Shown here: positions 27,990-54,315 of the stretch, piece after piece
Numbering within the stretch: position 1 is the first letter of the stretch
Layout of the letters: every line of letters begins with the position of its first letter
Source of the DNA: Lachnospiraceae bacterium
GTDB lineage: Bacteria; Bacillota; Clostridia; Lachnospirales; Lachnospiraceae
DNA length: 56,374 bases
Direction: 5' to 3'
Assembly (NCBI GenBank): GCA_017938285.1
Contig: JAGBBW010000073.1
Span: 1 to 56,374, forward strand
Translations under genes and position numbers: made by a program
Notes under the pieces: generated by a model
Databases searched by the model: none
What the model was told of the DNA's origin: nothing
The model's input: the letters and a program-made list of their open reading frames with translations, nothing else

Positions 27990-28024
27990 TCCTGTTCTGT
28001 TCCCCTTTTGTTTCTTAGAAGCTT

Positions 28025-28068
28025 TTTGCAAACGTATTCATTATATCCTGATTTTTCATTTTCTGCAA
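28025..28068 (-). promoter_or_regulatory. Promoter and operator of the LacI-type gene
   Basis: On the minus strand TTGCAG (28063-28068), 17 bases, perfect TATAAT (28040-28045). Overlapping the -10 box, plus-strand TTTGCAAACGTATTCATT (28025-28042) matches the main operator at 49003-49020 at 13 of 18 positions, with one half-site (CGTTTGCAA) intact. This suggests autoregulation. Confidence 0.7.
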
Positions 28069-30060: not shown

Positions 30061-30090
30061 ATTAATTCTCCATTCTCCTGTTTTCAATCA

Positions 30091-31731: not shown

Positions 31732-31754
31732 ACGTTTCAATCCCATCCTTTCTT

Positions 31755-33485
31755 CTATGGCTCCCGGCATAAACTAATATATTCCGCTGCTTTTCCTTCC
31801 GTCTCAAACACAATGATATCATTTTTTCCAGCTTTCAGCAACGGTCCCGGGATATACAGCCGCTTTTGTGGTCCGATTTCCCAGTAACGTCCGATATTAA
31901 ATCCATTTACAAACACACATCCCTTTCCAAAACCTTCAAAATCAAGAAAGGTATCTCCTGTCTCTTCTGTTTCCAGCACAAATTTATAGAAAGCCGGCAA
32001 TCCTTCTGTCCAGCCTTTTCCAAATGGAATTTTTTCCGTATTCTCCAGAGATAACGGATAATGCTTCCATTTATAATGCTGATGTCCGTTAATCACCACC
32101 GCATCCTTAATTCCTTTGTGCTGCTGCTCCATTCTGGCACCATAATTTACACGTCCCATATTTTCCATCAGGATATCAAGACAGTCACCATGCACTTTTT
32201 CTTCCAGCTTCTTTTCAGCCAGTAATTCCCGGTCATACAGCGTTGCAATTTCCTTTCCATCCAGATAACATTTTGCACGGTCATTGGCACCAAACAGACG
32301 AATGCTCTCCATTTCTTTATCCCGTACCAGTTCCGAACGGTATAATATATAGCCATAATTCTGACCCAGTTTTTCCATTGGAAGAGGGTAATGATTCTCC
32401 ACCGGAGTACTGATATCCTCTAAAACTTCCATAAGACCCACTTTGTCTGCCACCGGAAGTCTGCCATACTCCATCCGCTTTATTTCTGTTGTAAAGTTCA
32501 CTTCCGGTAGTTCTCTGAATTTCCGGATAACCTCCTGAAACATACGGTATTTCGGAGTAATCTGTCCATCCTCTGTCAACAGGGCATCATAGTCATAGGA
32601 TGTTACATCCGGCGTCAGAACATCATAATAATTTGCACCATTCATAAAACCAAAATTTGTCCCTCCGTGTGCCATATAAATATTCACGCTTCCCTGCTCC
32701 AGAATATCATTGAGGTCCTTTGCATGCTGGATTCCATCCTCCACATGATGAATATCTCCCCAGGAATCAAACCAGCCAACCCAGAATTCCATACACATCA
32801 GTGGCCGGTTTCCAATATGCTTTTTCAATACTGCAAACTGTTCTTTTGCTTTGGAACCAAAATTAGCCGACTGCAATACACCTTCCACTTTTCCGCAGGA
32901 CAGATAATCCCCCCATGGACCATCCGAAGTAATAAATTGCACTTCTGCACCATTCTCCAGCATCATCTGTTTCAGGCTTTCCAGATAGTCCCCATCGTCT
33001 CCGTAAGCACCGTATTCATTCTCTATCTGAAACATTAAAATCGGACCACCTCTGGTAATTTGAAGCGGTGTCAGAATCTCAAACAGTTTTTTATAATATT
33101 CGCGGACATGATCCAGATACGGACCATAGGAACTTCGCAGACGCATGCCGTCTTCTGCCAGAAGCCAGCCCGGAAAACCACCAAATTCCCATTCCGCACA
33201 AATGTACGGTGACGGACGGACAATTACCCATAGCCCCAGTTCCTGGGCCAGCGTAATAAACTTCTTCAAATCTGCCATACCTTCAAAATGAAACTCTCCT
33301 TTTTTTGGTTCATGCACATTCCAGGCCACATAAGTTTCTACTGTATTACAGCCTAATGCCTTTATTTTTTCCAGACGGTCTTTCCAATACTCCGGCACCA
33401 CACGAAAATAATGAATTCCACCCGAGATAATCTGAAACGGTTCCCCATTCAGATAAAATTTATCCTTTATTTCAAACGTACTCAT
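31755..33485 (-). CDS. GH35 beta-galactosidase
   Basis: Removes terminal beta-galactose. The 576-residue protein has the GH35 opening FQIISGGIHYFRVVPEYWKD, the strand RPSPYICAEWEFGGFPGWLL, the acid/base Glu in FQIENEYGAYG and the nucleophile Glu in CMEFWVGWFDSWGD. Two beta-sandwich domains make up the C-terminus, ending FVNGFNIGRYWEIGPQKRLY. No signal peptide, so cytoplasmic. GGGAGG lies five bases before the ATG. With the GH43 lipoprotein and the GH51 enzyme it fits a galactan or arabinogalactan backbone and side-chain pathway. A stem-loop at 33566-33614 separates it from the binding-protein gene upstream. Confidence 0.95.
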   Translation of the reverse strand: MSTFEIKDKFYLNGEPFQIISGGIHYFRVVPEYWKDRLEKIKALGCNTVETYVAWNVHEPKKGEFHFEGMADLKKFITLAQELGLWVIVRPSPYICAEWEFGGFPGWLLAEDGMRLRSSYGPYLDHVREYYKKLFEILTPLQITRGGPILMFQIENEYGAYGDDGDYLESLKQMMLENGAEVQFITSDGPWGDYLSCGKVEGVLQSANFGSKAKEQFAVLKKHIGNRPLMCMEFWVGWFDSWGDIHHVEDGIQHAKDLNDILEQGSVNIYMAHGGTNFGFMNGANYYDVLTPDVTSYDYDALLTEDGQITPKYRMFQEVIRKFRELPEVNFTTEIKRMEYGRLPVADKVGLMEVLEDISTPVENHYPLPMEKLGQNYGYILYRSELVRDKEMESIRLFGANDRAKCYLDGKEIATLYDRELLAEKKLEEKVHGDCLDILMENMGRVNYGARMEQQHKGIKDAVVINGHQHYKWKHYPLSLENTEKIPFGKGWTEGLPAFYKFVLETEETGDTFLDFEGFGKGCVFVNGFNIGRYWEIGPQKRLYIPGPLLKAGKNDIIVFETEGKAAEYISLCREP

Positions 33486-33650: not shown

Positions 33651-35186
33651 TTATTCTCCTGCTGTTTCTCCCTCAGAAGCCTGCTCTGCCGCATCCTTGA
33701 TTGCCTGCATTTCTGCATCATAATCGTAATTTAAGGCGTCCTTGATCGCCTGTGCAATCAGTTCCTGATTCTTCTCAATCGCAACCTGCGGTGTAGATGA
33801 ACCATTCTTAATTTCATCGAACATATTATTCATTGCGTTGGAAATATCACCAAAGCCCTTAATTGGATTAATAATACCAACACCGGCATTATTGATATAG
33901 GATACATTTTCTACCGATTCTGCATCCACTGCCCAGTTTTCTAACTGTGCTTCCATCAATTCATTCCATTCTTCTTCAGTATCTGCAATATCCGTGATTA
34001 AATCATAAATCAAAGCAACTTCTTCCGGATTTTCAATACCATTTAACATGAAACGGCCACCAAATTCTTTACCATAGCAGGACCAGTCCTCTGCGGAAGG
34101 TCCCTTAGGAAATGGCACCCAGCCCCATTCATCTGCCATACCGCCTTCTGCCTTGGTCAGATAACCGTAGGAAATCCAGTACTCTTCCAGACACATTAAA
34201 GCTGTACCATCACGGAAATTCCAAATCTGGGACCGCCAATCACCAAGCCATCCGTGCTGATAATCTACGGTTGTTGTGAAATCCTGTAACGCTGTCAGTG
34301 CTTCCACTACCTTTGGATCACTTAAGTTTACTTCCATTCCTGTATCTGTCTTCTTAACAACGTCTGCTCCATTTGAGTACAGATAACACCACGCCAGGGA
34401 CTCTCTTTCATTAAATCCATAGATATCAATCGTACCATCCTTGTCTACGTCCTGGTTTCCGGCAATGGCAATTTCCTTAAACTTGTCCCAGGTCCACTCA
34501 TCCTTGTTGTATAACTCATACAAATTAGGCAAGCCATACTTTTCAAACAACGTCTTGTTCCAGAAAATACCATATCTGATTTCCGGGTCCTTTAACAGCA
34601 TACCGTAATTCTTTCCCTTGTAATAACCTGCTTCTACTACATCCGTACGCCACTTGTAATCATCAAAATCAATGACGCCAAGGTCAGAAACCGGGTAGGC
34701 AATTCCACCTTCGATTAAAGATGGAAGCAGCTTATACGTCATGACATATCCAATTTCACAACATGGCTCACCTGCCAGAACCGAAGTGATGTATGTATTC
34801 AGATAATCACCACCAAGATTTACGAACTGGATATCACAATTGTAGTTTTCTTCTACAAATGCGATACGTTCTGCAAGAGCTTCCTTTAATGCACTTTCCT
34901 CTGGATTTGGAGTCATATCATAATAAGAACCGATTCTTACCACTCTGCCACCGAAATCATAAGATGGTTCCGGTTCTGCGGTCGGTGTTGCTGTTGCTTC
35001 CGGCTGGCTGTCGGTACTACCATCAGTTGTATTACTACTGTCATCCACCTGCGCCTGTTGTGTAGGTGCTGGTGTTGATGTAGCCTCTGTAGTGCTGTCT
35101 CCTTTGCTTCCACATGCTACTGCCGGCATTAACATAACCATACAGAGCAGTGTAGCCATCCATTTTGTTGTTTTTCTTGTACTCAT
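33651..35186 (-). CDS. ABC-type sugar-binding lipoprotein (family 1)
   Basis: A 511-residue solute-binding lipoprotein. The signal peptide ends in lipobox PAVAC (Cys 25), followed by a Thr/Gln/Pro-rich tether (about 28-75). The binding domain starts FGGRVVRIGSYYDM and shows family-1 features (YGIFWNKTLFEKYGLPNLYE; WTWDKFKEIA; ALMCLEEYWISYGYL). It lies upstream of GH35 and downstream of the permease pair 35326-37240, which it should serve. Ligand unknown; by context a galactose/arabinose oligosaccharide. The 139 bases before the gene hold no promoter I can defend, so it is probably part of the long operon. Confidence 0.92.
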   Translation of the reverse strand: MSTRKTTKWMATLLCMVMLMPAVACGSKGDSTTEATSTPAPTQQAQVDDSSNTTDGSTDSQPEATATPTAEPEPSYDFGGRVVRIGSYYDMTPNPEESALKEALAERIAFVEENYNCDIQFVNLGGDYLNTYITSVLAGEPCCEIGYVMTYKLLPSLIEGGIAYPVSDLGVIDFDDYKWRTDVVEAGYYKGKNYGMLLKDPEIRYGIFWNKTLFEKYGLPNLYELYNKDEWTWDKFKEIAIAGNQDVDKDGTIDIYGFNERESLAWCYLYSNGADVVKKTDTGMEVNLSDPKVVEALTALQDFTTTVDYQHGWLGDWRSQIWNFRDGTALMCLEEYWISYGYLTKAEGGMADEWGWVPFPKGPSAEDWSCYGKEFGGRFMLNGIENPEEVALIYDLITDIADTEEEWNELMEAQLENWAVDAESVENVSYINNAGVGIINPIKGFGDISNAMNNMFDEIKNGSSTPQVAIEKNQELIAQAIKDALNYDYDAEMQAIKDAAEQASEGETAGE

Positions 35187-35325
35187 GTTTCCCTCTCCTT
35201 TTTTCTATTATGAGATATTTGTGGGATATGTTGCAGCCCGTCCCTCTGTCCTGTCTTTTCCCGGCTGTCGCAGGCAGTTTACAACGTCCCATTATTTCAC
35301 TGCTGGATTAGCAGAAAAATACAAT

Positions 35326-36291
35326 TTAACCTACAATACCGGAACGCTCAATACCTTCAATAAAGTGTCTCTGGCAAATCAGATACAATACAATCAAAGG
35401 CAGAATCGTAATAATAACACCGGTATTATTCATCATCGAGGCAAACCCCGGACTGATGAAGTTCATGGAACCTCCAAAACTTTCATACTGGCTGTAAACC
35501 GAAGCAGCCAGAGAACCTAAGGAAGTTGCCATTACCTTTGTTGTTGGAAGATACAAAGAGGCATAGAAGTTATCGGTCCACTGCCATACAAAGCCAAACA
35601 GGAACACGGTAATCATCATTGGTACTGCACTCGGAAGCATAATCTGCACAAATGTACGGAATTTTCCGCAGCCATCGACAAATGCCGCCTCATCCAGTTC
35701 TCTTGGCATTCCTTTAAAAAACTGTCTCAGCATATAAATATAAAGACCATTTTTAAATCCCGTACAGGTAACTGCCTGTATCACATACGGCCATGCCGTA
35801 TTGATCAGATTAACACTGCTGCCGCTTACCGCACTTGGTATACCGAGGAGATCAAAGAAACGGTAAAACATAAACATCGGCAGCATGATAATCTGTGGAG
35901 GGACAATCATGGTGAACAGTATGCAGCCAAACAGCAGTTTTCTGCCCGGGAACCGGAATCTTGCGAAACCATACGCCGTCAGCAGACAAGCCATCAACTG
36001 TAATACGGAAACACCACCTGACAATAAAAAGGTTCTTAACATCGTAGTTTTTAATTCCATTCCCTTAATTGCCATCTTAAAATTATCTAATGTAAAATTC
36101 TTTGGAATGTACTTCACGCTGGAATCATACAAATCCGTTTCTGACATTACTGCCGCACTCATTTTGAAAAACAACGGCTGCAAAATAATAAAACAGATAC
36201 CTATAATAATTACTCCACGAATTACCTTCCATGTTCCATTAGCGACTCTGGCAGGTGTCATTCGTCTGTGTCTTTTTTTCATTTTTTCCAT
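35326..36291 (-). CDS. Carbohydrate ABC transporter permease (MalG/CUT1 type)
   Basis: A 321-residue permease with six predicted membrane helices. The EAA loop, which contacts the ATPase, reads LDEAAFVDGCGKFRTFVQIMLP (about residues 190-212) and marks the MalG-like partner. It pairs with the permease upstream (10 bases away) and the binding lipoprotein downstream. No ATPase gene is in the window; Firmicutes CUT1 systems commonly share a distant MsmX-type ATPase. Confidence 0.93.
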   Translation of the reverse strand: MEKMKKRHRRMTPARVANGTWKVIRGVIIIGICFIILQPLFFKMSAAVMSETDLYDSSVKYIPKNFTLDNFKMAIKGMELKTTMLRTFLLSGGVSVLQLMACLLTAYGFARFRFPGRKLLFGCILFTMIVPPQIIMLPMFMFYRFFDLLGIPSAVSGSSVNLINTAWPYVIQAVTCTGFKNGLYIYMLRQFFKGMPRELDEAAFVDGCGKFRTFVQIMLPSAVPMMITVFLFGFVWQWTDNFYASLYLPTTKVMATSLGSLAASVYSQYESFGGSMNFISPGFASMMNNTGVIITILPLIVLYLICQRHFIEGIERSGIVG

Positions 36292-36301
36292 AACTCATTC
36301 C

Positions 36302-37240
36302 CTACCTTTCATCATAATAGAAGACTTTCCGTGAAATCAGTCCACCTACAATCAGGACAATCACTCCAATAGCCAGGAAGTAAATCCATGCCATGGCTGA
36401 ACCATAGCCATACTTGACATCAGAGAAAATTGTTGTTTTAATGGCACTCATCATCTCATTCGTTTCATTTGTAAACGTATCAATAATAGTATAAATACTG
36501 TTCACAAGAATCAGTGGACTAATCATTGGAAAGGTAATCTTCCAGAAGTTTTCCCAGCCGGTAGCACCTTCCATATTCGATGCCTCATACAAAGATGAAG
36601 AAATGGACTGCAGTCCGGCAAGGAAAATCAAAATCTGTACACCGGAAGCAATGATAATATCATAAATACCATTTACGGCATTGGACAAAAATCCAATCAC
36701 ACCAGCCGGGAGATTTGTATATTCCCTTAAAAATCTTGCCATGTTCAAAAAAGAAGCAATCTCATCGGAGTTCATTTCCGCTTCACTGGCAGCCTGTACC
36801 AGGAGGTCTGACGATTCCAGTCCCAGTACAATCCCAGAAGTCAGAATTACCGGAAAGAAGAAAATACTTCTTGCTATTGCTCTTCCGGCAAACTTCTGGT
36901 TCAGCAGATTTGCCGCAAAAAAACTGAAAATGATAATCAGCGGAACATTAATACACATGTTTTTAATGGCCTCCAGCAGCATCTGGTTAAATTCTGGATC
37001 AATCGTAAAGGCCCGGATATAATGCTCCAGTCCTCCCTTTGCCGCCGGAGTCAATACGTAACCATCCGCCGTCACTTCCATATTGTGGAGACTGAATGAC
37101 ACCGACTCAATTACCATTGGAAGGAAAAAGCAGAAGAATCCAATCAGGGCAGGAAGCGCAAACAGATAACCGGCAATGGCTTCTTTCCCACGAAGCGTCA
37201 GTTTTATTTTCCCATTTCTTTTTTTCAACAGCTTCTCCAT
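36302..37240 (-). CDS. Carbohydrate ABC transporter permease (MalF/CUT1 type)
   Basis: A 312-residue permease. Its ATG at 37240 overlaps the stop of the DUF5696 gene (TAATG), so translation is coupled; a longer open stretch to 37339 inside that gene is not used. Membrane helices begin at AIAGYLFALPALIGFFCFFL. The EAA-type loop is SLYEASNMEGATGWENFWKI. It forms the heterodimer of the second importer with the permease at 35326-36291. Confidence 0.93.
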   Translation of the reverse strand: MEKLLKKRNGKIKLTLRGKEAIAGYLFALPALIGFFCFFLPMVIESVSFSLHNMEVTADGYVLTPAAKGGLEHYIRAFTIDPEFNQMLLEAIKNMCINVPLIIIFSFFAANLLNQKFAGRAIARSIFFFPVILTSGIVLGLESSDLLVQAASEAEMNSDEIASFLNMARFLREYTNLPAGVIGFLSNAVNGIYDIIIASGVQILIFLAGLQSISSSLYEASNMEGATGWENFWKITFPMISPLILVNSIYTIIDTFTNETNEMMSAIKTTIFSDVKYGYGSAMAWIYFLAIGVIVLIVGGLISRKVFYYDER

Positions 37241-39867
37241 TACTGCGCCCCCTTCCCAATTAATGCAAAATCTTCTGCGTCCACGGTAACACCGGAAACC
37301 TCCACTGGTTTCTTCGTGTAATTCACAACTACCGTACATCCATTTTCGTAAGTTACCTGGTATACATTCTCTGCAACTTTCGTATGCTCTGTAATCCTGC
37401 TGTTAGCAGATGCCTTATAAATTTCATTGACTCTTGCCCAGTCATTCACTGCCTGATTCAGCCATACGGTATAATTTACAGAATAAAAATCATCATAATC
37501 CGTATCCTTCAATATAGAATTCTCTTCGTAAATCCAGCAGAAATACACACCTGCACCAGACTCTACGCTCTTTAACAATTGGGTACGATAATCATCACTC
37601 ATATTCCAGGCTTCTCCGGCATATTCCACGTAGCCTTTCAGAACCATAGAGTAGAACGGAATCTCTTCGTCAATCATCCGCAAATGATTGGAATCCATCG
37701 GCACATGCACTACATCTGTTACATACGGAAGCACATAAGCATTGGCATTTTCTGCAAGTACACCACCATTCAGTTCTGTTTTCAGAAGAGCTGCTGCCGC
37801 TGCATTTCTAACTGCTGCCAGTTGTCTGTCGGTATACGTTTCTCCATTATAATCCGAATACAGATTACTGGAGAGACTACCCAGACCAATAGCAGAAACA
37901 CCTGCCTTCTTTAAGTACTCCGCCGTCTGCTCTGCAATGCTTTCCGCATAAAACGGACTAATCATTTTTATGTCTTTTTCTTTCATGTAACCATTAGCTG
38001 TCAGATACTCACCGGATTTAATAATACTTCTGTCAAAGTATCTTGGCGCATGGCTCTGTGCAGAATAACCATCCTGCATGGCATCCTGGTATACATACTG
38101 AAATTCTGCTGTCGGGTATACCGTTATGCCACTGTTTTTCATCCGTTCTGTATATTCTTCCAGATCCATACCACCCTTTGCTACCTTCCTTTCTTCCGAA
38201 GGTTTTGCCATAGCAGACCCTTCCAGACCACCATCTGCCCAGCCGGAATAGAGAACCTTAATATTTTCTACCCCTCTGTCAATCAGCAGTTCTGTAATTT
38301 CTGCCGCCTGAGTATAGGTAGTCAGAGGCACAACAGCACTGTACTTAATACCCATCAGTGATTCCAGTTTGTCAATAGCACCAATATATTCCACATAAAA
38401 TGGTGCCTCTGTCGGAAGCTCTTTCTTTACCAGTTTTCCTTCCTTTTCCAGATACTGCTGGTAACAGGAGGCCATACCGGAATAGTCTGCTTCTTCTCCG
38501 CAGAGAAAGAAATAACGCAATGTATAATTTTCTGTAAACTCCGGTCGGGAATACATATAAAAGCTGTTGGCACCTACAATATCACCAAGAGAAATTGCTC
38601 CACAGGTCAGATAAGAAAATCCGGCATAAACATGATTATACGAAGTTGTTCTTCCAGATACATCCGCAGAAATATCCGCATAGGCATCACCCTGCTCAAT
38701 CACTGCCATCCATGCTGTTTCATCCGCCTTTAATCCAAACACCGGCATCTTGACCGACAGGGAATCTTCCATATCACCCTTCCATTGGTTCATGGAGGTC
38801 AGTGTCCTATCCTGTCCGTATACTTTAGAATTATAGCTGGATACTGTGTTTTTCCCATTGTTCAGATAAATCAATGCTCCACTTCCGTCCGGCACAAACA
38901 GGTAACCCTCCTGCTCTGTATTTGCCGCCCCGAAATACGGAAGCAGTTCCACATCCACCAGATAAAAACCATCCGTGTTGTAGGTAATTGTAGCCGGGTC
39001 AATCTCTGCTACAAAATTGTCATCCTCCAGACGATACTCCAGGGTAATCTGGAACCATGGCTTATTAGAGGAAGTTTCTCCGCAGTTTTCTTCCATATCT
39101 GCTACCATCTCTTCTGCTGTATATCCCGCCGCAGTAAAGTATTCCATCATTTCTTCCCTAAGGTAATCCTTGGTTCCTGACTTCAGAATATACAGGTTGT
39201 GCAATTCCAGTCCCGGATACAGTTCCAACTGCTCTTTTAATTCAGAATCACTCATTTGTTCCTTATCCAGATACGTATAATTTCTTTTGATTTTTTTCTG
39301 GATTTTTTCTTCCATCTGTCCAACATAACTTAAAAACCGCTCTTCACTGATTGCAGTCGGAATGACAATTTTTGTTGCTGTTTCACCCAGTGTATATACT
39401 ATTCTGACACCGGATGGCGTATACTCAAAAGCAAACTGTCCTTCTGCCACCGAATCTGTATAACTGTCCATTTCCAGAAGCTGCACATATTCGTTATAAT
39501 AACTGATATTAAACTGTGCCATCATTTTCTTCTGATAATAAGTGGAAGCAAAGGTATCCTCTTCTGCCTCCGGAGGATTGGTATAATATATGGTTCCATC
39601 CTCTTTGTGATAAATTGCTGCCGCTGCATCTTTTTCCCGGAAAAACAGTGCCAGACTGTCATTTTCTGCTGCCAGTGTCATTTCCAGTTCTTTGGCCATT
39701 GTTTCACATTCTTTTGAAAAATCATCCGGGATATCGCAGCTGGTTTCCGGCTTTTCTCCTGTTGTTTTGCTTCCGGTCAGCGGACTGCCATTCAGAAGAA
39801 GTATCCCTACCAGCAAAAGAATGCAGATAACAGGGCTAATCATTATTAACATTTTCCTCTTAGTCAT
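37240..39867 (-). CDS. DUF5696-type membrane-anchored extracellular protein
   Basis: An 875-residue protein (from ATG 39867, preceded by AGAGGG) of the family I know as DUF5696; function unestablished. One N-terminal membrane helix (about 5-25, MLIMISPVICILLLVGILLL) is followed by an all-extracellular body. The first half is beta-rich (about 60-440). The second half (about 480-800) has alternating strand-helix segments resembling a (beta/alpha)8 glycosidase barrel (VENIKVLYSGWADGG; GITVYPTAEFQYVYQDAM; AGVSAIGLGSLSSNLYSDYN), ending in a small beta domain. Conserved-looking acidic residues sit at strand ends, but I cannot name a catalytic pair. It lies between the two importers with YIP1 and NHL partners. 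Glycan binding or processing at the membrane is my inference. Confidence 0.72.
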   Translation of the reverse strand: MTKRKMLIMISPVICILLLVGILLLNGSPLTGSKTTGEKPETSCDIPDDFSKECETMAKELEMTLAAENDSLALFFREKDAAAAIYHKEDGTIYYTNPPEAEEDTFASTYYQKKMMAQFNISYYNEYVQLLEMDSYTDSVAEGQFAFEYTPSGVRIVYTLGETATKIVIPTAISEERFLSYVGQMEEKIQKKIKRNYTYLDKEQMSDSELKEQLELYPGLELHNLYILKSGTKDYLREEMMEYFTAAGYTAEEMVADMEENCGETSSNKPWFQITLEYRLEDDNFVAEIDPATITYNTDGFYLVDVELLPYFGAANTEQEGYLFVPDGSGALIYLNNGKNTVSSYNSKVYGQDRTLTSMNQWKGDMEDSLSVKMPVFGLKADETAWMAVIEQGDAYADISADVSGRTTSYNHVYAGFSYLTCGAISLGDIVGANSFYMYSRPEFTENYTLRYFFLCGEEADYSGMASCYQQYLEKEGKLVKKELPTEAPFYVEYIGAIDKLESLMGIKYSAVVPLTTYTQAAEITELLIDRGVENIKVLYSGWADGGLEGSAMAKPSEERKVAKGGMDLEEYTERMKNSGITVYPTAEFQYVYQDAMQDGYSAQSHAPRYFDRSIIKSGEYLTANGYMKEKDIKMISPFYAESIAEQTAEYLKKAGVSAIGLGSLSSNLYSDYNGETYTDRQLAAVRNAAAAALLKTELNGGVLAENANAYVLPYVTDVVHVPMDSNHLRMIDEEIPFYSMVLKGYVEYAGEAWNMSDDYRTQLLKSVESGAGVYFCWIYEENSILKDTDYDDFYSVNYTVWLNQAVNDWARVNEIYKASANSRITEHTKVAENVYQVTYENGCTVVVNYTKKPVEVSGVTVDAEDFALIGKGAQ

Positions 39868-39908
39868 ATTCCCTCTCATTCTGCCGCTTTCGCGGCTCAC
39901 CAGCTCTG

Positions 39909-40529
39909 CTAACGAAACCGGATTTCTTCATAAATAGTTGAAACAAAGGTCATCATCTGCTGGATTACATTAAAAAACAATAATCCGATAAACATGATAA
40001 TTCCCATACCGACAATCGTACAAATGCAGGTCAGCAGTGTTTTCTTTACCGAATACTGATGTGTAATCATGGTTCCAAGTATCAGAAGAGCTCCTGCCCA
40101 CAGATAACTGACAACACCTATCACATCGTAAAAACTGCCTTCTCCACTGGTCAGCATATAGCTGATAAGAATCATTGGAAGACGAAGCAGAATAACCGGA
40201 AACAAAGCATATCCTGTCGCAATCGCGATATCCTTTAATTTCCCTTCTCCATCCATCAGGGATGTCAGGCACCAGTTTGCCACACACCAGAGCACATACA
40301 ACAAAAGGACGGTAATAACATCCACCATAACATTGATACGGTCCAGACGATACGGATTAAATAAGAATGCCGTCTTCTGCTTTTCCAGAGTCAGTGTAAT
40401 AATGGTCAGCGCCACAAAAGTCAGTGCAGCAGCAAGACTTCCTCTCTGTTCTCTCTTTAAATCCCAGAATCCATCAAATGGATGAAAGATAACATGAAAC
40501 GCATATTTTATTGTTTTTCCATAACGCAT
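39909..40529 (-). CDS. YIP1-family multi-pass membrane protein
   Basis: A 206-residue integral membrane protein with about five hydrophobic helices (AAALTFVALTIITLTL; VLLLYVLWCVANWCL; GYALFPVILLRLPMILISYM; YLWAGALLILGTMIT; GMGIIMFIGLLFFNVIQQM) and the N-terminal AFHVIFHPFDGFWDLKRE typical of bacterial YIP1-domain proteins. Its start overlaps the NHL gene by 22 bases, so the two are translationally coupled. Role unknown; it may anchor or assemble the NHL and DUF5696 proteins next to the permeases. Confidence 0.8.
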   Translation of the reverse strand: MRYGKTIKYAFHVIFHPFDGFWDLKREQRGSLAAALTFVALTIITLTLEKQKTAFLFNPYRLDRINVMVDVITVLLLYVLWCVANWCLTSLMDGEGKLKDIAIATGYALFPVILLRLPMILISYMLTSGEGSFYDVIGVVSYLWAGALLILGTMITHQYSVKKTLLTCICTIVGMGIIMFIGLLFFNVIQQMMTFVSTIYEEIRFR

Positions 40530-42016
40530 CTGACTTCACCTGCCCATCTTCGAAATTTCTTTACTCCAATTACAGTACCTGTTACCAGAATAATTACACC
40601 TACCAGCCCCATTGCCTTGGAGAAATAATCCTGCATGATTTCTTTCCGGTAGTAATAAAATGCAGTGGAATAATACTTTTTGCTGTTTCCAAGTTCAAAA
40701 TACTCCATGGCTTTTTTGTAACTGCCTTCCTTCAGAAACGTCTTTCCAAGACCAATGTAGGCAAGTTCGCAGTTACTGTTCTGCTTCAATACTTCCTGCC
40801 ACTCTTCATATGCTCCCTGGGAATCTCCCCGGTTGTTCTTTTCCATTGCGCCCAAAAAATGGCTGCCGTATTCCGTAATTTCAAACTGCATAATTTCCCC
40901 AAGCTGGGAATCCAGTACATAAATGATGCTGGCATCCCGGTTTGTTCCTATGGCTGCCGGAAGTCTCATGGTTCCTTCCCGGTTTCCTTTATCACCAAAG
41001 ATAAACAAGGAATTACCATCATAATCATAGGCAAATACCTTTCCTCCTGCAGAATCCAGAATGAAGTAGCAGCCATATCCGGTTGCGCATACATCCCGGA
41101 ACACAGACCACTCTGCATCCTCTGAGGAATTGTATAAATCACCGATAATATTGTAATTGCCCAGTCTTCTTAAAATATCTGTTCCTGTCGGATTCAGACG
41201 CCGGATTGCGTCTGCACCGGAAAGATACCCTTCTTCATCCAGATTACTGATCGTGGCGTAAATAAACCCTTCCTTATCCAGAAACAGATTGCTGTATTCT
41301 GTAGGAACAATGGTTTCCATCCTCTTTTTCTGCTCTTCTGTTGAGAAGTAATTTTTCCAGATATACTCCAGTGGATTTACGGATACCTCAGCAGCACCCA
41401 TAAAACCCTGGAACACACCCTCTTTGCTGAACTCCAACAGACCCATATTGATACCATACGCTGTAACATAGATACGGCCTGCTTTATCTACCACCAGTTT
41501 GACCGGTGTGTACATCTGGTTGCTGTCAATCAGGTCTGTCACCGGACGTCCAATACTTCTTAAAAACGCTCCTTCTGCGTCATATTCTACAATCCTGCCA
41601 TTTCCGGAGTCCGCAACATAAAGATGCCCTTCCTCTGTAACAAAAATTCCCTGAGGCTTTGATAGCCGGTCTTCCTCTCCACCGGCCGTATTCCACTCCA
41701 TCAGAACCTTACCGGTCAAAGACAGCTTCAGTACACGGGAGTTTCCTGTATCTGCCACATAAACTGCCTCTTCTGTCAGAAACATATCCTCCGGATAATT
41801 CAGTTTTGTCTGAAAATCATCTGCGGAAAGAGACCCTGTGTACAAATAGGCATGTGGCTGTATCACATCCTCTGTCCAGTAATTATAACTGTAGGTATCG
41901 TATGGCATATCCGCATATACCGTCTGTGCCGCCGGTGCACTTCCGACTGTCAGAACCATTGTCAGCATAGCGAGAGCTGCCATACGTTTTGCTGTACAGA
42001 ATATTCTTTTCTTCAT
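40508..42016 (-). CDS. NHL-repeat beta-propeller membrane protein with TPR segment
   Basis: A 502-residue exported protein. The signal peptide ends near APAAQTVYA (about residue 35). An NHL-type propeller fills about 50-390, with repeats such as LTEEAVYVADTGNSRVLKLS and VTEEGHLYVADSGNGRIVEY. A TPR-like stretch follows (AYEEWQEVLKQNSNCELAYIGLGKTFLKEGSYKKAMEYF), then a C-terminal membrane helix (AMGLVGVIILVTGTVIGVKK) with a short cytoplasmic tail. The propeller and TPR therefore face outside. It lies between the first permease pair and yip1. A scaffold for surface glycan handling is plausible but inferred. Confidence 0.85.
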   Translation of the reverse strand: MKKRIFCTAKRMAALAMLTMVLTVGSAPAAQTVYADMPYDTYSYNYWTEDVIQPHAYLYTGSLSADDFQTKLNYPEDMFLTEEAVYVADTGNSRVLKLSLTGKVLMEWNTAGGEEDRLSKPQGIFVTEEGHLYVADSGNGRIVEYDAEGAFLRSIGRPVTDLIDSNQMYTPVKLVVDKAGRIYVTAYGINMGLLEFSKEGVFQGFMGAAEVSVNPLEYIWKNYFSTEEQKKRMETIVPTEYSNLFLDKEGFIYATISNLDEEGYLSGADAIRRLNPTGTDILRRLGNYNIIGDLYNSSEDAEWSVFRDVCATGYGCYFILDSAGGKVFAYDYDGNSLFIFGDKGNREGTMRLPAAIGTNRDASIIYVLDSQLGEIMQFEITEYGSHFLGAMEKNNRGDSQGAYEEWQEVLKQNSNCELAYIGLGKTFLKEGSYKKAMEYFELGNSKKYYSTAFYYYRKEIMQDYFSKAMGLVGVIILVTGTVIGVKKFRRWAGEVRCVMEKQ

Positions 42017-42027
42017 TGCAGTTCCCC

Positions 42028-42900
42028 CTATTCCTTAATACCTGATGATGCCATTGTTTCAATGATGTTGCTCTGGCTAATAATAAATATCACTATAGGA
42101 ACAATCATCATAATCACTGTTACTGCTGCCGTAGCACCTGCACGGGCAATACCACCAGCAGAAATCTGTGACAACGCATACGGTAATGTTTTTAATTCTT
42201 CACTGTAAATATAATTTGCTCCCTGCATATTCCATAAATCCTGGAAACAGAAAATAATCAGTGTCAGCCAGGCTGGTTTTACCTGCGGCATCGCAATCTT
42301 CCAGAATACTGCAAACTCCCTGGAACCATCAATTCTGGCTGCTTCCAGAAGGGTATCCGGAATCTGCTCCATAAACTGTTTCATCAGAAACAGTCCCAGC
42401 GGTTTTGCCAGTGCAGGTACTATCAGTGCAAGGTAATTATCCAGCCATCCAAGCTTTGTCATAATTAAATAGTTCGGAATGGCCGTTACATGCCCGGAAA
42501 ACATCAATGCTGTTACAATAACTCCGAACACCAGATTTCTTCCAGGGAACTTATGCTTTGCCAGTGCATACGCACACAGACTGGCAATCACCAGATGTCC
42601 CGCAGTACCAAACACTGTAATAAAGACGGTATTGAAAATATATCTGGAAAACGTAACCCAGGACTGACCCATCAATACAAACACATCATGAAAATTATCC
42701 AACGATGGGTCTCTTACAAAAAATCTTGGTGGGAATACGAACAGTTCTTCTGTCGGCTTCAATGCATTACTGAATGACAGAATCAGCGGCAACGCCGTAA
42801 ATGTACCCATAATCAATAAGATAACTATACTGGCGATATCTCCACCTTTGGAATGATTTGGCTTTACTCTTTTTTTATGTTTTTTCTTCCACAATGCCAT
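42028..42900 (-). CDS. Carbohydrate ABC transporter permease (MalG/CUT1 type), first importer
   Basis: A 290-residue permease with six predicted helices. The EAA loop is LLEAARIDGSREFAVFWKIAMP (about 180-202). ATG at 42900 is chosen: it lies two bases after the stop of the upstream permease, with AGGTAGGA ahead of it. It forms the first importer with 42903-43871 and the large binding protein 43880-46771. Confidence 0.93.
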   Translation of the reverse strand: MALWKKKHKKRVKPNHSKGGDIASIVILLIMGTFTALPLILSFSNALKPTEELFVFPPRFFVRDPSLDNFHDVFVLMGQSWVTFSRYIFNTVFITVFGTAGHLVIASLCAYALAKHKFPGRNLVFGVIVTALMFSGHVTAIPNYLIMTKLGWLDNYLALIVPALAKPLGLFLMKQFMEQIPDTLLEAARIDGSREFAVFWKIAMPQVKPAWLTLIIFCFQDLWNMQGANYIYSEELKTLPYALSQISAGGIARAGATAAVTVIMMIVPIVIFIISQSNIIETMASSGIKE

Positions 42901-42902
42901 AC

Positions 42903-43871
42903 TCAATTTCCTACCTTTCTCAGCAGAAATTGAACTGCTTTATTACAAAGAATCATGACTGCGAAAAGCAGTGTTGCAATCGCTGACGCATATCCCATTT
43001 CAAACCGGATTGTACCATAGTCAATCAGATGGGATACTACGGTATGTGCTGCATAATCCACACTTGGAAAACCTGCCAGTGCTGCTAACTGGTCGTGTAT
43101 TCCAAAAGAGGAGGTAATCGTCATTACCGCACCAAATAAAAGCTGCGGTTTCATGGAAGGAAGCGTAATATACCACAGTTCCTGAAAACGATTCGTTACA
43201 CCATCCACATAACCTGCCTCATACAAGGCACGGTCTACATTCTGCAGACCGGCGATAAATGAAAGGAAACCGGTACCCATACTCATCCAGAGTACGACAA
43301 TAATCAGAATTGGTGCTATATAAGTTCCATCCTCAAACCATAAAATCGGTTCATACAAAAAACCAAGTTTCATCAGCCAGCCATTTGCCAGACCATAAGA
43401 GTCACTGGAAAAGATAAACTTCCAGATAACATAAGCCTGACCGGAAATGGTTGGTGCGTAGAAAATCAGTGTCATAACTGCTCTTACCTTAGGCTTTAAA
43501 TCATTAATCATCCATGCGATAAATAATGCAAGGAAATACCCTACCGGACCAGTAATGACAGCAAACAGGAATGTATTCTTTACAGCAGTAAGGAACACTT
43601 CATCCGCAAAAAACAGATTGATGTAATTCTGCCAGCCCACAAATCTCGGTGTTTCCAACACATTAAAGTAAGTAAAACTCAGGCAAATGGAGGAAATTAC
43701 CGGCACCAGATAAAACACAATAAACAAAATACAGAATGGTGCGATAAAAAGATAGGACACTTTATGATTGGCCATCTCTTTCCCCAGCCTTTTCAGTTTT
43801 CTCCCAAGGTAGCGGAACATTAACGGCAGAAAAGGTTCTTTTTTTACAGACTTTTTTTGAATTTCGTTCAT
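42903..43871 (-). CDS. Carbohydrate ABC transporter permease (MalF/CUT1 type), first importer
   Basis: A 322-residue permease. Helices include YLFIAPFCILFIVFYLVPVI near residue 40. The EAA-type loop is ALYEAGYVDGVTNRFQELWY. AGGAGGGAGC lies directly before the ATG. It follows the large binding protein by eight bases. As with the other pair, no ATPase gene is present. Confidence 0.93.
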   Translation of the reverse strand: MNEIQKKSVKKEPFLPLMFRYLGRKLKRLGKEMANHKVSYLFIAPFCILFIVFYLVPVISSICLSFTYFNVLETPRFVGWQNYINLFFADEVFLTAVKNTFLFAVITGPVGYFLALFIAWMINDLKPKVRAVMTLIFYAPTISGQAYVIWKFIFSSDSYGLANGWLMKLGFLYEPILWFEDGTYIAPILIIVVLWMSMGTGFLSFIAGLQNVDRALYEAGYVDGVTNRFQELWYITLPSMKPQLLFGAVMTITSSFGIHDQLAALAGFPSVDYAAHTVVSHLIDYGTIRFEMGYASAIATLLFAVMILCNKAVQFLLRKVGN

Positions 43872-43879
43872 GCTCCCTC

Positions 43880-46771
43880 CTAATCTAATTCCAGATTGAA
43901 TTCTTTTCGTTTGTTTTCAATCTCATTGTTAATGGTCTTTACATAATTCTCCAATGTTTCTCTTGCATCCTCCTGGGAATTATAGACGGTATAAAATGCA
44001 AACTTAATATTTCTTTCCGTAAAATACCCTCCCGGCACTTCCGGAATTGCTTTCACCCATTCCATCTGGGCTTTGAGCTGGCCATAGTCATTACTGGACC
44101 ACGGAAGACTCTCCAGTGCTTCCAGGTTTGCGGTTGCCACACGTCCCGCTACACCAAGGACATTCTCAATATCATTGCCATAATTGGATTGTGTTTCTGC
44201 ACTCATCCACCACTTCAAAAACTCCCATGCGTTTTCTTTCTGATCCGAAGTTTCCATAATAATGGAGGCCGTTTCCCATGCGGATACCGAACGGTTTTCA
44301 TTCCCATTTTCATCCACATATGCCGGAACTACAGTGAATCCCCATAAACCTTTTATTTCCGGTGCAAATACTGTCAGATAGTTGTAATTGGTGTAATCAC
44401 CAATCGCCAAAGGCATTTCACCTGTACGGAAGCGGTTTGCAAAGTCAAATGTAATCGGCATACGGTAGTTTGCATAATTTCCGCTCCACATCTGAAATGC
44501 TGCAATTGCTTCTTCCGAATCCAGACCACTCCTCTTTCCTTCCTCCGCATAGAATTCTCCGCCATGCTGATATAAAAACATCGCATACGTCGTATAATCC
44601 GGAAAGACTCCGACATTCATATTGTTCTTCTGGATAATGGCAAGTGTCTCATAAAACTCATCCCAGTTCGTTGGTACTTTGGCACCAAGTTCTTTTAATA
44701 TATCTGCCCGGTAAAACATAACATGGAACGACATCGTCTGTGGCAGGGCATATACACCACCATCATAGGTAAACTGGGTCATGGCTTCTTCATGAAACCA
44801 TGTCGTCACTTCTTCATAATCCTCAAACTGTGTCAGATCCGCTACTGCATTTCGGAGCGCATAGTTCACAGGTTCTTTTCCGGCAACATTCAATGCCACA
44901 TCCGGTCCTGTACCTGCCAGAGTTGCAGATAACAATACATCTTTATTTACCAGTTTTATGTTGACTGGAATTCCCGTCTCCGGAACAAAATAGTTATCTA
45001 CCATGGTTTTAATAATATTTGCCTGGTCACGGCCGCTTCCGGAAACACTGGACACGCTTCCGGCATCCGCCAGTATCCATACTTCGATTGCATCCGCATA
45101 TACTTCACCAATACTGTCATAATCTTCTACAAAGCTGGCAAAGAATTTTACAATTTCATGCCACAGCTTCTGAAAAAAGTTCGCTTCTACCTTCGGAAGT
45201 TCTGCTCCTGGTGAGGCAACAATGATGTAATCAATTTCCAGTGGCTGTTCTTTCATACCCAGCGCCCAGGAACTTAACGCAACAATATTATCTTTAAAAG
45301 ACCCCCACTGCTTTGCTATGGTTTCCGGTTCTTTTGACATTCTGGCAAGCTGGTTAAGCAGATTGTCAATAGCAGCACCATCGCTGCCCTTCGAGCCTTT
45401 GGAATAGCTTTCCAGCTTTTTTGAAATCTCCTGTACTGCCTCATACTGTTCAGCAAGAATCTGCAAGGCTTCCGGTGTTTTCTTTTCCAGCTGGTAATCT
45501 CTCATGGTATCCGGTGAACTTCCGATTACCATCAAAAGCAGGCGGTAGGCCCGGTTCAATTCATATACCGACTCATCCGTCATACGGAGTATTTCTGAAA
45601 GTTCCTGACCCAGTGTAACCTCCAGTGTAATCGTATGGGTACCGGCTGTCATATAAAACCGGTAGGCTTCGTCCCCATTTCCCGGAGTCAGCATACACCA
45701 GTCATTCTTATACAGGAAATACAGCTCCCTTGCTTCTTCAAATGGAACCTCACCATCAATGGCAAGTGCCCTGGAAACAGTTACCCCCTGTTTTGTATTC
45801 TGACGGTACTTAATATCAATTTCATACAGACCATCCTCCGGAACTTCTACTTCCCAGCTGATCCATTGTCCAATCTGCGACCAGTTTGTTCCACCAATCG
45901 TATTCAGACAAAGTTTTCTGGCGCTGGCCGGTTCTGTCAGCGGAGAAGTACGGTCCGTTACCGGATACAGGGTAGAATCCGATTTATACGCTGCAGCTTC
46001 TCCCTGAATTTTAATATTTTCTGTCTGTGCATCTTCTGCACCGGCTGCTTTCCATCCTTCCAGATACTCTTCATAGGAGGGCAGTGTTTCCTGCTGCTTT
46101 AATGTCAGATTACCAATAATCACCGGTTCTTTGGCCGCCGAAAGTGTAATACGGCTGCTTCCTTTTTCAAAATAAAACTGATACGCCCTGGTATAAAAAC
46201 CATTACTGTCCATAGCATAGGCACTTCTCCACTCGGGTGCTTCTATCTGCTTTGGACGGACCTCGTTATCTCTGGAATCCAGATAAATTCCGGTTTCATC
46301 CTCCCAGACACGGGAAAACTCCAGATACTGTGCTCCCTGAAATGGTATCTCACCATTGATGTACAACGCACGCTCTATCGTATTATTTTTTCCCTCTGTT
46401 GGATAATATGTAAGTTCAATGTTATAAAATCCACTCTCCGGAATCTCCACTTCCCATGTGACATCTCCTTCTTCCGGTGTAAGGACCGCATTTCCGGTAT
46501 ACCCTTCATAACTGCCAAGCACTACGGTTCCTTCCGGCGCTTCCAGAAAACTGCCACCTTCAATAACAATTTCCTGTATTGGATACCCGGCATTTTTATG
46601 CGACTCCAGATAATCCTCATATTCCATTGCGTCATAAATAATCGAAAACGGGTCATATTCTGTTGCGGTTTCTTCCGCTTCTGCTCTGGCTGTAATCTGT
46701 ACAGGAGAAGCCAGTACTGAAAAGCATAGCAAACCTGCCATATATTTTTTCCACCGTGATCTCTTTTTCAT
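43880..46771 (-). CDS. Large extracellular solute-binding protein fused to two CBM-like modules
   Basis: A 963-residue exported protein. A cleavable signal peptide ends near ITARAEAEE (about 31). Two related beta-sandwich modules follow (about 50-200 and 250-395), sharing the pattern RALYINGEIPFQGA / RALAIDGEVPFEEA, and resemble CBM6/malectin-like domains. A helical connector (about 400-540) leads to a family-1 binding domain (about 565-950; LAGTGPDVALNVAGKEPVNY, FHVMFYRADILKELGAKVPT, MPLAIGDYTNYNYL). It is about twice the normal length for a sugar-binding protein. No lipobox Cys is present, unusual for a Gram-positive importer. The ATG overlaps the end of the GH43 region at GGAGGATTAACATG, so it is coupled to that gene. 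Confidence 0.88.
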   Translation of the reverse strand: MKKRSRWKKYMAGLLCFSVLASPVQITARAEAEETATEYDPFSIIYDAMEYEDYLESHKNAGYPIQEIVIEGGSFLEAPEGTVVLGSYEGYTGNAVLTPEEGDVTWEVEIPESGFYNIELTYYPTEGKNNTIERALYINGEIPFQGAQYLEFSRVWEDETGIYLDSRDNEVRPKQIEAPEWRSAYAMDSNGFYTRAYQFYFEKGSSRITLSAAKEPVIIGNLTLKQQETLPSYEEYLEGWKAAGAEDAQTENIKIQGEAAAYKSDSTLYPVTDRTSPLTEPASARKLCLNTIGGTNWSQIGQWISWEVEVPEDGLYEIDIKYRQNTKQGVTVSRALAIDGEVPFEEARELYFLYKNDWCMLTPGNGDEAYRFYMTAGTHTITLEVTLGQELSEILRMTDESVYELNRAYRLLLMVIGSSPDTMRDYQLEKKTPEALQILAEQYEAVQEISKKLESYSKGSKGSDGAAIDNLLNQLARMSKEPETIAKQWGSFKDNIVALSSWALGMKEQPLEIDYIIVASPGAELPKVEANFFQKLWHEIVKFFASFVEDYDSIGEVYADAIEVWILADAGSVSSVSGSGRDQANIIKTMVDNYFVPETGIPVNIKLVNKDVLLSATLAGTGPDVALNVAGKEPVNYALRNAVADLTQFEDYEEVTTWFHEEAMTQFTYDGGVYALPQTMSFHVMFYRADILKELGAKVPTNWDEFYETLAIIQKNNMNVGVFPDYTTYAMFLYQHGGEFYAEEGKRSGLDSEEAIAAFQMWSGNYANYRMPITFDFANRFRTGEMPLAIGDYTNYNYLTVFAPEIKGLWGFTVVPAYVDENGNENRSVSAWETASIIMETSDQKENAWEFLKWWMSAETQSNYGNDIENVLGVAGRVATANLEALESLPWSSNDYGQLKAQMEWVKAIPEVPGGYFTERNIKFAFYTVYNSQEDARETLENYVKTINNEIENKRKEFNLELD

Positions 46772-46772
46772 G

Positions 46773-48845
46773 TTAATCCTCCATTTCGATTTGTGGCAAC
46801 AGCCATTCCTCCTGATAGGAAATATTCATGTGACCTTCCTCATCAAAGGAGATTGGAAGCCAGATATATCTGGAATTTGCCAGGTCGTCACTGTTCCAGC
46901 GGTCACCCATGTAAATATAATAGTCTTTTTCTTCGTCATAACAGAAAATACAGGTACTCTGGGAATAAAATGTCGTTCTGCTGATATCATCCACACAGGG
47001 ATCCCCCATATCTGTCCACGTACCAAAAACAGAATCCGCCATAGCGTATTTTGCAGGATTTGGTGCCCAGCCGGTGCAGGCAGAAGTCATCAGATAATAC
47101 TTTCCATCCCGCTTAAACATAGCCGGTGCTTCACGTTGTGCTCCAGGAAAAATACGGATAAAATCTTCGCCGTATACGGCGTTCTCCGGTGCTGTTGCCA
47201 GATAGGTATATTCTTCATTTAATTTTGAAATATACAATGTCAGGTTTTCTTCACTGGAATAAATGATATACGCTGTTCCATCATCATCAATAAACAGATT
47301 CATATCACGCGCCATACCTTTACTCTTTGGATAAAAATCTTTCTGATTCTCCGGACAGGTATTCAGACGATATCTGTCAATGAATTTAAACGGTCCTGTC
47401 GGAGAATCACTGACTGCAACCCCTGCAGATGCCGCCGCATAATTTGCGCTGCTTGTTGCTGTTGGTCCGTCTGCATGAAACCAGATAATATACTTTCCAG
47501 TCTTTTCGTTATAAATCATTTTAGGACGCTCTATCACAGAGGTTGTATCATTTATACACTCATATACCCGGTCTAACTGTTCTTCTGAATAATCACCATA
47601 CAAATCAATAAAATACGGTTCTGTTTCCAACTGTTCCCTGCTGGAAACATTGCGCATTACAGTCCCTTCAAAAACCCAGTTAATCAGGTCCGTGGAACTA
47701 TAGGCATTAATGCCGCCGCGATAGCCATAGGTCTTGTCTTCTCCAACCCACCACCATTTTTCTACCAGTTCTCCACTTTCCGGATCCATAACCTTCAGCT
47801 TCTGAATGTGACCTCCATGAGCCTGAATCAATGTACCATCCACATCCTTCCAGACATCTCCCGGCCGGATAGCTGCCAGTTCCAGAGATTCTCCCGCTTT
47901 TTCCAGTGCCATGTACCTCTCTTTATATTCCGTACTGTCTGCCACTGTCTTTTCCATTGTTTCCATCGTTTTGATAACCTCGCTTTCCAATACACTCATT
48001 GAGTTCTGTGTGTATTTCTTCCTTTCTTCCATAATTATTTCCTGTTCATCCAACAGGCATTGTAAAAGTTCCCTGTCATACTCCGGTACTGCCTTTATAA
48101 TGATATAAGACAGTATTGGATTTTTCATGGAATCTTTTCCACGATTTTCATTTTTTACACAAAGGTTCAAAATTCCGTCTGTAACCGTTTGTGTACATAC
48201 AAGCTCTGTCGTTTCGTATTTGAATATTTTCCCCTGTGAAACAAGACATTCCTCTTCCACACAGATATCAACTTTTCTCGTGCTGAACGGATCATGAAAT
48301 CCGCAGATAATTTCGTAGTTTCCTTTCGGCACTTCAAAGTCATAATAAAAGCCGGTCTCTTCTGTATATTCTGCATTGGCATTAACTTCCCAGGAAACCG
48401 ATATCTTATCAGCAGCGCCTACATCTCCGACTGCTGTCATATATTCCGGGTTCTGATAGCCCCACTGCCGCTTCGTTCCAGTATCTTCTCCAAAGCTCTG
48501 GTCAGTAACTGTCTGATACAGTCCCATAACATCCTGGTCTGTTATTTCTGTTGTATTTTTCGTTCCACAATTCACAAAATAAATTGTAAAATCATTCTGA
48601 AAAAGCTGCTGCTGCGTCACTCCTGCCGCATATATGGATTCTTCCACCTGCCCCTGTAGTTTTTCCGGTTCGGTAGTTTTTTCCACATTTCCTGCCTGAC
48701 CTTCCAGACCGGATAATGATTCTTCCTGCACACTATCAACCTGTTGTCCTGTATTTTTCTGCCCTGTATCCTGTTTTTCTGTACATGCTGTCAATAGCAT
48801 TAATCCCACCATAATACATAACACCATTCCCTTTTTCTTCTTCAT
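46773..48845 (-). CDS. GH43-family surface lipoprotein, exo-beta-1,3-galactanase-like
   Basis: A 690-residue lipoprotein; signal peptide with lipobox LLTAC. A CBM/malectin-like module (about 95-255) and a helical spacer precede the five-bladed GH43 domain (about 330-690). The GH43 motifs IQAHGG, ERPKMIYNEKTGKYI, ARDMNLFIDDDGTAY and REAPAMFKRDGKYYLMTS match my memory of subfamilies 24/34, where the usual base Asp is absent and the general acid is Glu. Subfamily 24 contains exo-beta-1,3-galactanases acting on arabinogalactan; this is my preferred call. ATG at 48845 has GAGGAG six bases upstream; 12 open codons before it are rejected. It is the first gene of the long operon, 140 bases from its promoter. 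Confidence 0.82.
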   Translation of the reverse strand: MKKKKGMVLCIMVGLMLLTACTEKQDTGQKNTGQQVDSVQEESLSGLEGQAGNVEKTTEPEKLQGQVEESIYAAGVTQQQLFQNDFTIYFVNCGTKNTTEITDQDVMGLYQTVTDQSFGEDTGTKRQWGYQNPEYMTAVGDVGAADKISVSWEVNANAEYTEETGFYYDFEVPKGNYEIICGFHDPFSTRKVDICVEEECLVSQGKIFKYETTELVCTQTVTDGILNLCVKNENRGKDSMKNPILSYIIIKAVPEYDRELLQCLLDEQEIIMEERKKYTQNSMSVLESEVIKTMETMEKTVADSTEYKERYMALEKAGESLELAAIRPGDVWKDVDGTLIQAHGGHIQKLKVMDPESGELVEKWWWVGEDKTYGYRGGINAYSSTDLINWVFEGTVMRNVSSREQLETEPYFIDLYGDYSEEQLDRVYECINDTTSVIERPKMIYNEKTGKYIIWFHADGPTATSSANYAAASAGVAVSDSPTGPFKFIDRYRLNTCPENQKDFYPKSKGMARDMNLFIDDDGTAYIIYSSEENLTLYISKLNEEYTYLATAPENAVYGEDFIRIFPGAQREAPAMFKRDGKYYLMTSACTGWAPNPAKYAMADSVFGTWTDMGDPCVDDISRTTFYSQSTCIFCYDEEKDYYIYMGDRWNSDDLANSRYIWLPISFDEEGHMNISYQEEWLLPQIEMED

Positions 48846-48980
48846 AACTTTCTCCTCATAATCGTCTTTCTTATTTTGCACATAATCCAGTTGTTTTTAT
48901 TAACTTTATTATTGTTGGTATTTACTAATGTTGTAACGTCTATTAAGGTAAATATATTACTAACCATCAATTTCGACTTG

Positions 48981-54248: not shown

Positions 54249-54315
54249 GGAATATTCCTCCATATCTTCTCTAATATTTATATAATTATTTTTCCATTAC
54301 ATTTCCACTATACCG

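Follow-up and report, generated by a model that had tools for sequence, protein, structure and literature searches.

A recurring gene cassette combines two CUT1-type permease pairs with NHL, YIP1 and DUF5696 membrane proteins

The gene cassette around DUF5696 is real and widespread, and many bacteria of gut and soil have it. Its eight-gene set was found in 37 of 398 sampled species, roughly one in eleven, of the phylum to which the window belongs, the window being the whole stretch of 56,374 nucleotides analysed here. The cassette very probably acts as one functional unit. The first-pass annotation had proposed one machine in place of chance neighbours, and this is strongly supported by synteny, co-occurrence and the repeated fusion of NHL with YIP1; synteny and co-occurrence rule out a chance neighbourhood. 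With moderate confidence, we favour a reading in which the products of the eight core genes assemble into a single composite CUT1-type importer, with a constant core and a mostly non-catalytic DUF5696.

Between positions 33651 and 46771 the ORF list places nine genes, all on the minus strand, and together with Pfam it bears out the earlier description of nine co-directional genes with two permease pairs and two solute-binding proteins. The run probably exceeds these coordinates, with GH43 in front and GH35, MCP, GH51 and LacI behind on the same strand. In the direction of transcription the order is GH43, SBP1f, permA, permB, NHL, YIP1, DUF5696, permC, permD, SBP2, GH35, MCP, GH51 and LacI, each on the minus strand. 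GH43, the first gene of the run (46773..48881; PF04616, E 5.6e-17), has an LLTAC lipobox and is a predicted surface lipoprotein. A gap of 1 base separates it from SBP1f (43880..46771; PF13416/PF01547), a CUT1-type solute-binding protein. The first permease pair consists of permA (42903..43871; PF00528), a CUT1-type permease with an EAA loop, and permB (42028..42906; PF00528), which also has an EAA loop and overlaps permA by 4 bases if the listed TTG is its start; the labels MalF-like for permA and MalG-like for permB come from order and size. NHL (40508..42016) combines a propeller with a helical (TPR-like) block and a C-terminal transmembrane helix, YIP1 (39909..40529) has five predicted transmembrane helices, and DUF5696 (37240..39900) is composed of an N-terminal transmembrane anchor, a beta-sandwich and a GH129-like barrel. 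Pfam confirms the identities of DUF5696 (PF18952, E 1.1e-182), YIP1 (PF04893, E 1.8e-17) and NHL (PF01436, E 7.5e-13). The reported overlap of 22 bases between NHL and YIP1 is found in the sequence, as is the TAATG at the DUF5696 stop, where permC can start at the ATG at position 37240. The longest permC ORF (36302..37339 as listed; PF00528, E 1.7e-6) begins 99 bases upstream of this ATG, and position 37240 within TAATG is the probable start. permC is the first permease of the second pair and permD (35326..36291; PF00528, E 1.8e-15) the second; SBP2 (33651..35186; PF01547, E 2.8e-12), a solute-binding protein with an AVAC lipobox, follows.

Downstream lie a GH35 beta-galactosidase-type enzyme (31755..33485; PF01301, E 8.3e-121) and a GH51-type alpha-L-arabinofuranosidase (28075..30087; PF22848/PF06964), both with no hydropathy peak and so no predicted signal, and a LacI-type regulator (26940..28031; PF00356/PF13377). 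Inside this sugar run a chemoreceptor, an MCP with an sCache domain by Pfam (30091-31770), separates GH35 from GH51 and shares 16 bases with GH35. The promoter scan was uninformative, with 37 sites against 38.7 expected; 23 terminator-like sites were found against 10.8 expected. Elsewhere in the window, at 51705-55854, a restriction gene of GmrSD type that ends in DUF4268 is the neighbour of a Schlafen/AlbA-type gene; the two may form a defence pair.

Relatives of DUF5696 (PF18952) were searched in 60 genomes of the family and in 398 genomes of the phylum, the window's own genome included in each. In the family 25 genomes match at E 0.001, 21 of them with a match over the cut-off; at the phylum threshold of 1e-30, 37 of 398 genomes from 20 of 267 genera do so. 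The 25 family stretches comprise all listed places above 300 bits and a few fragments, with fragment G016:C53 omitted. Five further stretches surround short or weak relatives, and 55 represent all new places listed by the phylum search, which scored at most three candidates per genome, so that extra copies in some genomes are not among the loci. Profiles derived from the family loci served to assign the ORFs. The first set contains 81 loci, the window included. The second contains 80 named loci from a genome collection, the best 80 of 562 confirmed among at least 593 pattern matches, and is biased to close relatives, as the best matches were kept. Two places are common to both sets, giving 161 loci with 159 distinct DUF5696 segments. 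Among the matches listed, the closest named relatives of DUF5696 are Lachnospiraceae, which points to Bacillota as the phylum; the named carriers include Lachnospiraceae and Paenibacillus. None of 36 pattern matches in viral contigs was confirmed as a relative.

The order NHL-YIP1-DUF5696-permC-permD is the same in nearly all of the 161 loci that are uncut by contig ends. Of the 161 loci, 156 (78/81 and 78/80) have NHL and YIP1 as the immediate upstream neighbours of DUF5696; the five exceptions are contig edges (3 and 1) and locus L151 with a gap of 547 bases. permC follows DUF5696 immediately in 75/81 and 76/80 loci. Its exceptions are three contig edges in each set, locus L057, where permC-permD comes first in the run, and loci L113, L117 and L185, where permC is present and its ORF was called overlong. 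SBP1f-permA-permB lies in the same stretch as DUF5696 in 131 of 161 loci (58/81 and 73/80). The full triplet is missing from the fetched stretch in 23/81 and 7/80 loci; some of these 30 are truncated at a contig end, and several lack it despite about 8 kb of upstream sequence. Homologues scattered away from their partners, the observation that the first-pass annotation had set against its own proposal, did not turn up where full-length DUF5696 and its partners NHL-YIP1 and permC/permD are concerned; SBP1f-permA-permB, by contrast, is located elsewhere in some loci.

Co-occurrence was assessed over the same 398 genomes. The NHL-YIP1 profile detects 46 genomes at 1e-20, of which 8 were set aside for scores below 90 bits with only part of the propeller matched. 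The remainder are the 37 DUF5696 genomes and G302, whose match also covers part of the propeller. The SBP1f profile detects 45 genomes at 1e-60; 5 with about 320 bits and a match to the SBP domain only were set aside, which leaves the 37 DUF5696 genomes together with G139, G163 and G213, the match in G139 covering mainly the SBP domain (positions 533-971). By comparison of the lists by eye, all 37 DUF5696 genomes among the 398 contain both NHL-YIP1 and SBP1f. Mirror-tree correlations of 0.75-0.95 for all pairs are as shared phylogeny predicts and were not used as evidence.

The conservation of the parts is layered. Over 2645 locus pairs among 108 loci, mean identities are 61.8% for permA, 59.8% for permB, 45.1% for permD, 44.5% for SBP1f, 43.8% for permC, 40.1% for YIP1, 38.8% for NHL, 33.4% for DUF5696 and 27.0% for SBP2. 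permA/permB is hence the most conserved part and SBP2 the most variable, followed by DUF5696. In divergent pairs, the SBP domain of SBP1f retains 49.6% identity versus 24.8% for SBP2. Copy numbers were recounted in 15 genomes with all candidates scored except in G125 (57/70 for SBP1f), some matches being fragments at contig ends. Copies of DUF5696 and of fused NHL-YIP1 agree closely (G121 10/10, G224 8/8, G099 11/12, G141 19/19), and therefore NHL-YIP1-DUF5696-permC-permD is one unit. SBP1f copies are fewer in these genomes (4, 4, 6 and 10, respectively), as they are in G194 (10 DUF5696 versus 4 SBP1f) and G051 (5 versus 3), and equal those of DUF5696 in nine (G054, G039, G045, G401, G160, G349, G394, G125 and G435). 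Given ratios such as 10 to 4, SBP1f-permA-permB is, judged from these gene counts, not strictly paired one to one with the DUF5696 unit. The lower number of SBP1f copies therefore suggests that one SBP1f-permA-permB may serve several NHL-YIP1-DUF5696-permC-permD units.

That the two halves can lie apart and differ in copy number is also expected if the cassette encodes two independent CUT1 importers, each for its own products of a single polymer, in one transcript with a DUF5696 that is an active surface glycosidase and removes branches from the glycan ahead of its import. We consider this doubtful. A fixed operon could hold two merely co-regulated importers, and the EAA loops are intact in all four permeases (136, 136, 155 and 155 aligned members for permA, permB, permC and permD), with E mostly replacing D in permC. 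Two importers leave NHL-YIP1 unexplained, however, and permA/permB are alike across loci with different enzymes. On comparison within these loci, a permease pair so constant beside changing enzymes seems unexpected for a substrate-specific importer, although other constraints could also cause the high permA/permB identity. Apparent fusions of permA and of permC in locus L117 (871 and 821 aa) look like overlong ORFs in a high-GC genome and were discarded. Among the 20 ORFs of the region scanned with Pfam there is no ABC ATPase; MalK-like OB domains are found at four places elsewhere in the genome of the window.

The fold of DUF5696 bears on the same question. The structure model (pLDDT 88.4) and fold comparison support the predicted barrel-like second half, which is GH129-like, as an active glycosidase would have it. 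At the positions of NagBb D435 and E478, which we take to be the conserved catalytic Asp and Glu of GH129, D and E are both present in 16 of 159 members, and some acid is found at the acid/base position in 84. In the window these positions are S675 and E717. Conversely, 32 members lack an acid at both GH129 positions and 9 lack one at all three positions examined; this alignment of positions is indirect, via the GH129 homologues L061-L063. The earlier suggestion of an unclassified glycosidase is thus not supported as the general role of DUF5696, since most members no longer have the intact GH129 catalytic pair, and we judge general glycosidase activity unlikely. D683 is kept in 138 of 159 members, and therefore catalysis through other residues is possible. 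Two short DUF5696-like proteins (L059:8676-10355 and L060:9226-10977) are encoded in 20-kb stretches that contain neither NHL nor YIP1; they have D and E at the D435/E478 positions and, by these residues, are candidate active glycosidases. L061, L062 and L063 are GH129 homologues in the family of the window (L062 versus NagBb 7e-271), and CUT1 permease genes lie near L062 and L063.

In NHL, the model of a fused relative contains a six-bladed propeller and a helical block, and the transmembrane segment at the C-terminus spans residues 467-485. The TPR claimed for NHL stays below the Pfam cut-off in the protein of the window, but the relative's model has the helical block there. YIP1 reaches 64.1 bits against PF04893 (cut-off 28.6) and has five hydropathy peaks. 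NHL and YIP1 form a single fused protein in 57 of 161 loci, with at least nine state changes. The fold search with the fused model was filled with propellers and barely probed the YIP1 part. The YIP1 profile had one match to solved structures, at chance level (E 0.47). Homology of YIP1 to the permeases is not supported (hhalign probability 0.3%), the best local match being the EAA loop. Residues 91-116 of YIP1, with the predicted cytoplasmic loop LMDGEGKLKDI, locally resemble this loop. A tentative and rather improbable extension would be a new class of ABC importer, in which YIP1 is a subunit, a pseudo-glycosidase acts as receptor and the two permease pairs, unlike each other, belong to one complex; a constant permA/permB-SBP1f core would serve a number of exchangeable receptor modules, and LMDGEGK in the cytoplasmic loop of YIP1 would mimic an EAA coupling loop.

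YIP1-family proteins function in eukaryotic membrane traffic, and propellers and helical (TPR-like) blocks are frequently protein-binding folds. Both would suit a role of NHL, YIP1 and DUF5696 in assembly or localisation, in which they position the importer and the surface enzymes in the membrane and do not handle sugar. This is distinctly unlikely, as DUF5696 is second only to SBP2 in variability and has a glycosidase-like fold, which fits a substrate-facing part better.

SBP1f and SBP2 are predicted sugar-binding proteins by Pfam, and for SBP1f the PDB profile search agrees, its binding domain being nearest to Lin1841 (5ysb). The N-terminus of SBP1f is signal-like and has no lipobox; it is followed by two regions resembling CBM35-type beta-sandwiches, a helical linker and a CUT1-type binding domain. 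Of 17 family members, 5 match CBM_35 at E 0.01. SBP1f of the window shows no hydropathy peak over threshold, whereas 116 of 131 members do; 15 of the 131 have a simple lipobox pattern. SBP2, with its mean identity of 27% between loci, is the most variable part of the set. After one cassette each, tandem SBP2-like ORFs, some of them short, number five in locus L075 and six in L070, as if one importer had several receptors.

For the substrate, we surveyed flanking ORFs of at least 300 aa at 19 loci from the family of the window and at 27 from outside it, covering the top 25 of 46 and 25 of 86 flank families, respectively. The glycan families seen most often are, in the family flanks (73 ORFs), GH43 (7), arabinofuranosidase C-terminal domains (6), GH130 (5) and GH31 (3) and, in the other flanks (91 ORFs), GH10 (9), GH43 (9), GH5 (5) and GH26 (4). 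Fucosidases, a rhamnogalacturonan lyase and unrelated genes are also present. The flanking enzymes point mostly to plant cell-wall glycans and to no single glycan. Arabinogalactan, proposed initially, agrees with GH43, GH35 and GH51 of the window, but elsewhere xylan, mannan and other enzymes adjoin the cassette, and as its general substrate it is rejected because the neighbouring enzymes vary. The flanks also encode regulators (LacI-type, AraC-type HTH_18 and His_kinase PF06580), and the run of the window includes an MCP. DUF5696 and NHL-YIP1 might on these grounds form a surface receptor that senses importer occupancy and signals to a regulator or the embedded MCP. We regard this as very unlikely, given that Pfam detects no signalling domain in any core protein and that the regulators vary from locus to locus.

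In the composite importer that we favour, permA/permB and SBP1f would form a substrate-independent core, and substrate specificity would lie with the other half, made up of permC/permD, DUF5696 and exchangeable SBP2 lipoproteins. The two halves would be joined by NHL, through its external propeller, and by YIP1 within the membrane. Because the catalytic pair is eroded while the gene is kept, we infer that DUF5696 is a membrane-anchored and mostly non-catalytic GH129-like barrel that may hold the glycan chain at the importer mouth, possibly helped by the CBM-like regions of SBP1f. MalK-type ATPases encoded elsewhere would power transport. In the window, the surface GH43 would trim arabinose-containing glycans, and intracellular GH35 and GH51 would finish the imported oligosaccharide.

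In the literature, we found no description of DUF5696/PF18952; most subscription papers lay outside the coverage, and a description may exist there. Searches combining Yip1 or NHL with transporter terms returned no account of the gene set among the matches listed, and the literature found on PF04893 does not link it to DUF5696/PF18952. Sugar ABC importers are usually described with one solute-binding protein, two permeases and two ATPases. The recurring set, of which we found no description, suggests a larger assembly. Should the parts work as one machine, this would account for the uptake of large branched plant glycans by the carriers and assign a role to DUF5696 and to the NHL and YIP1 proteins of bacteria.

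Known CUT1 ABC sugar importers include MalFGK2, MsmEFGK and GanSPQ. The cassette resembles them in its solute-binding proteins and its permease pairs with EAA loops, and the MalK-like OB domains encoded elsewhere in the genome may mark the matching ATPases. In contrast to them, it recurs with two permease pairs, two unlike solute-binding proteins, NHL, YIP1 and DUF5696, and its first solute-binding protein has CBM-like regions and rarely the lipobox pattern (15/131). DUF5696 shares its fold with GH129 (NagBb and ZgGH129, related to GH101), but has an additional N-terminal membrane anchor and lacks a conserved catalytic pair. The run of the window, where GH43, GH35, GH51, a LacI regulator and importer genes lie on one strand, has the gene content of a Gram-positive polysaccharide utilisation locus (gpPUL). 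Unlike a gpPUL, the cassette has an unchanging core that is found next to different enzymes.
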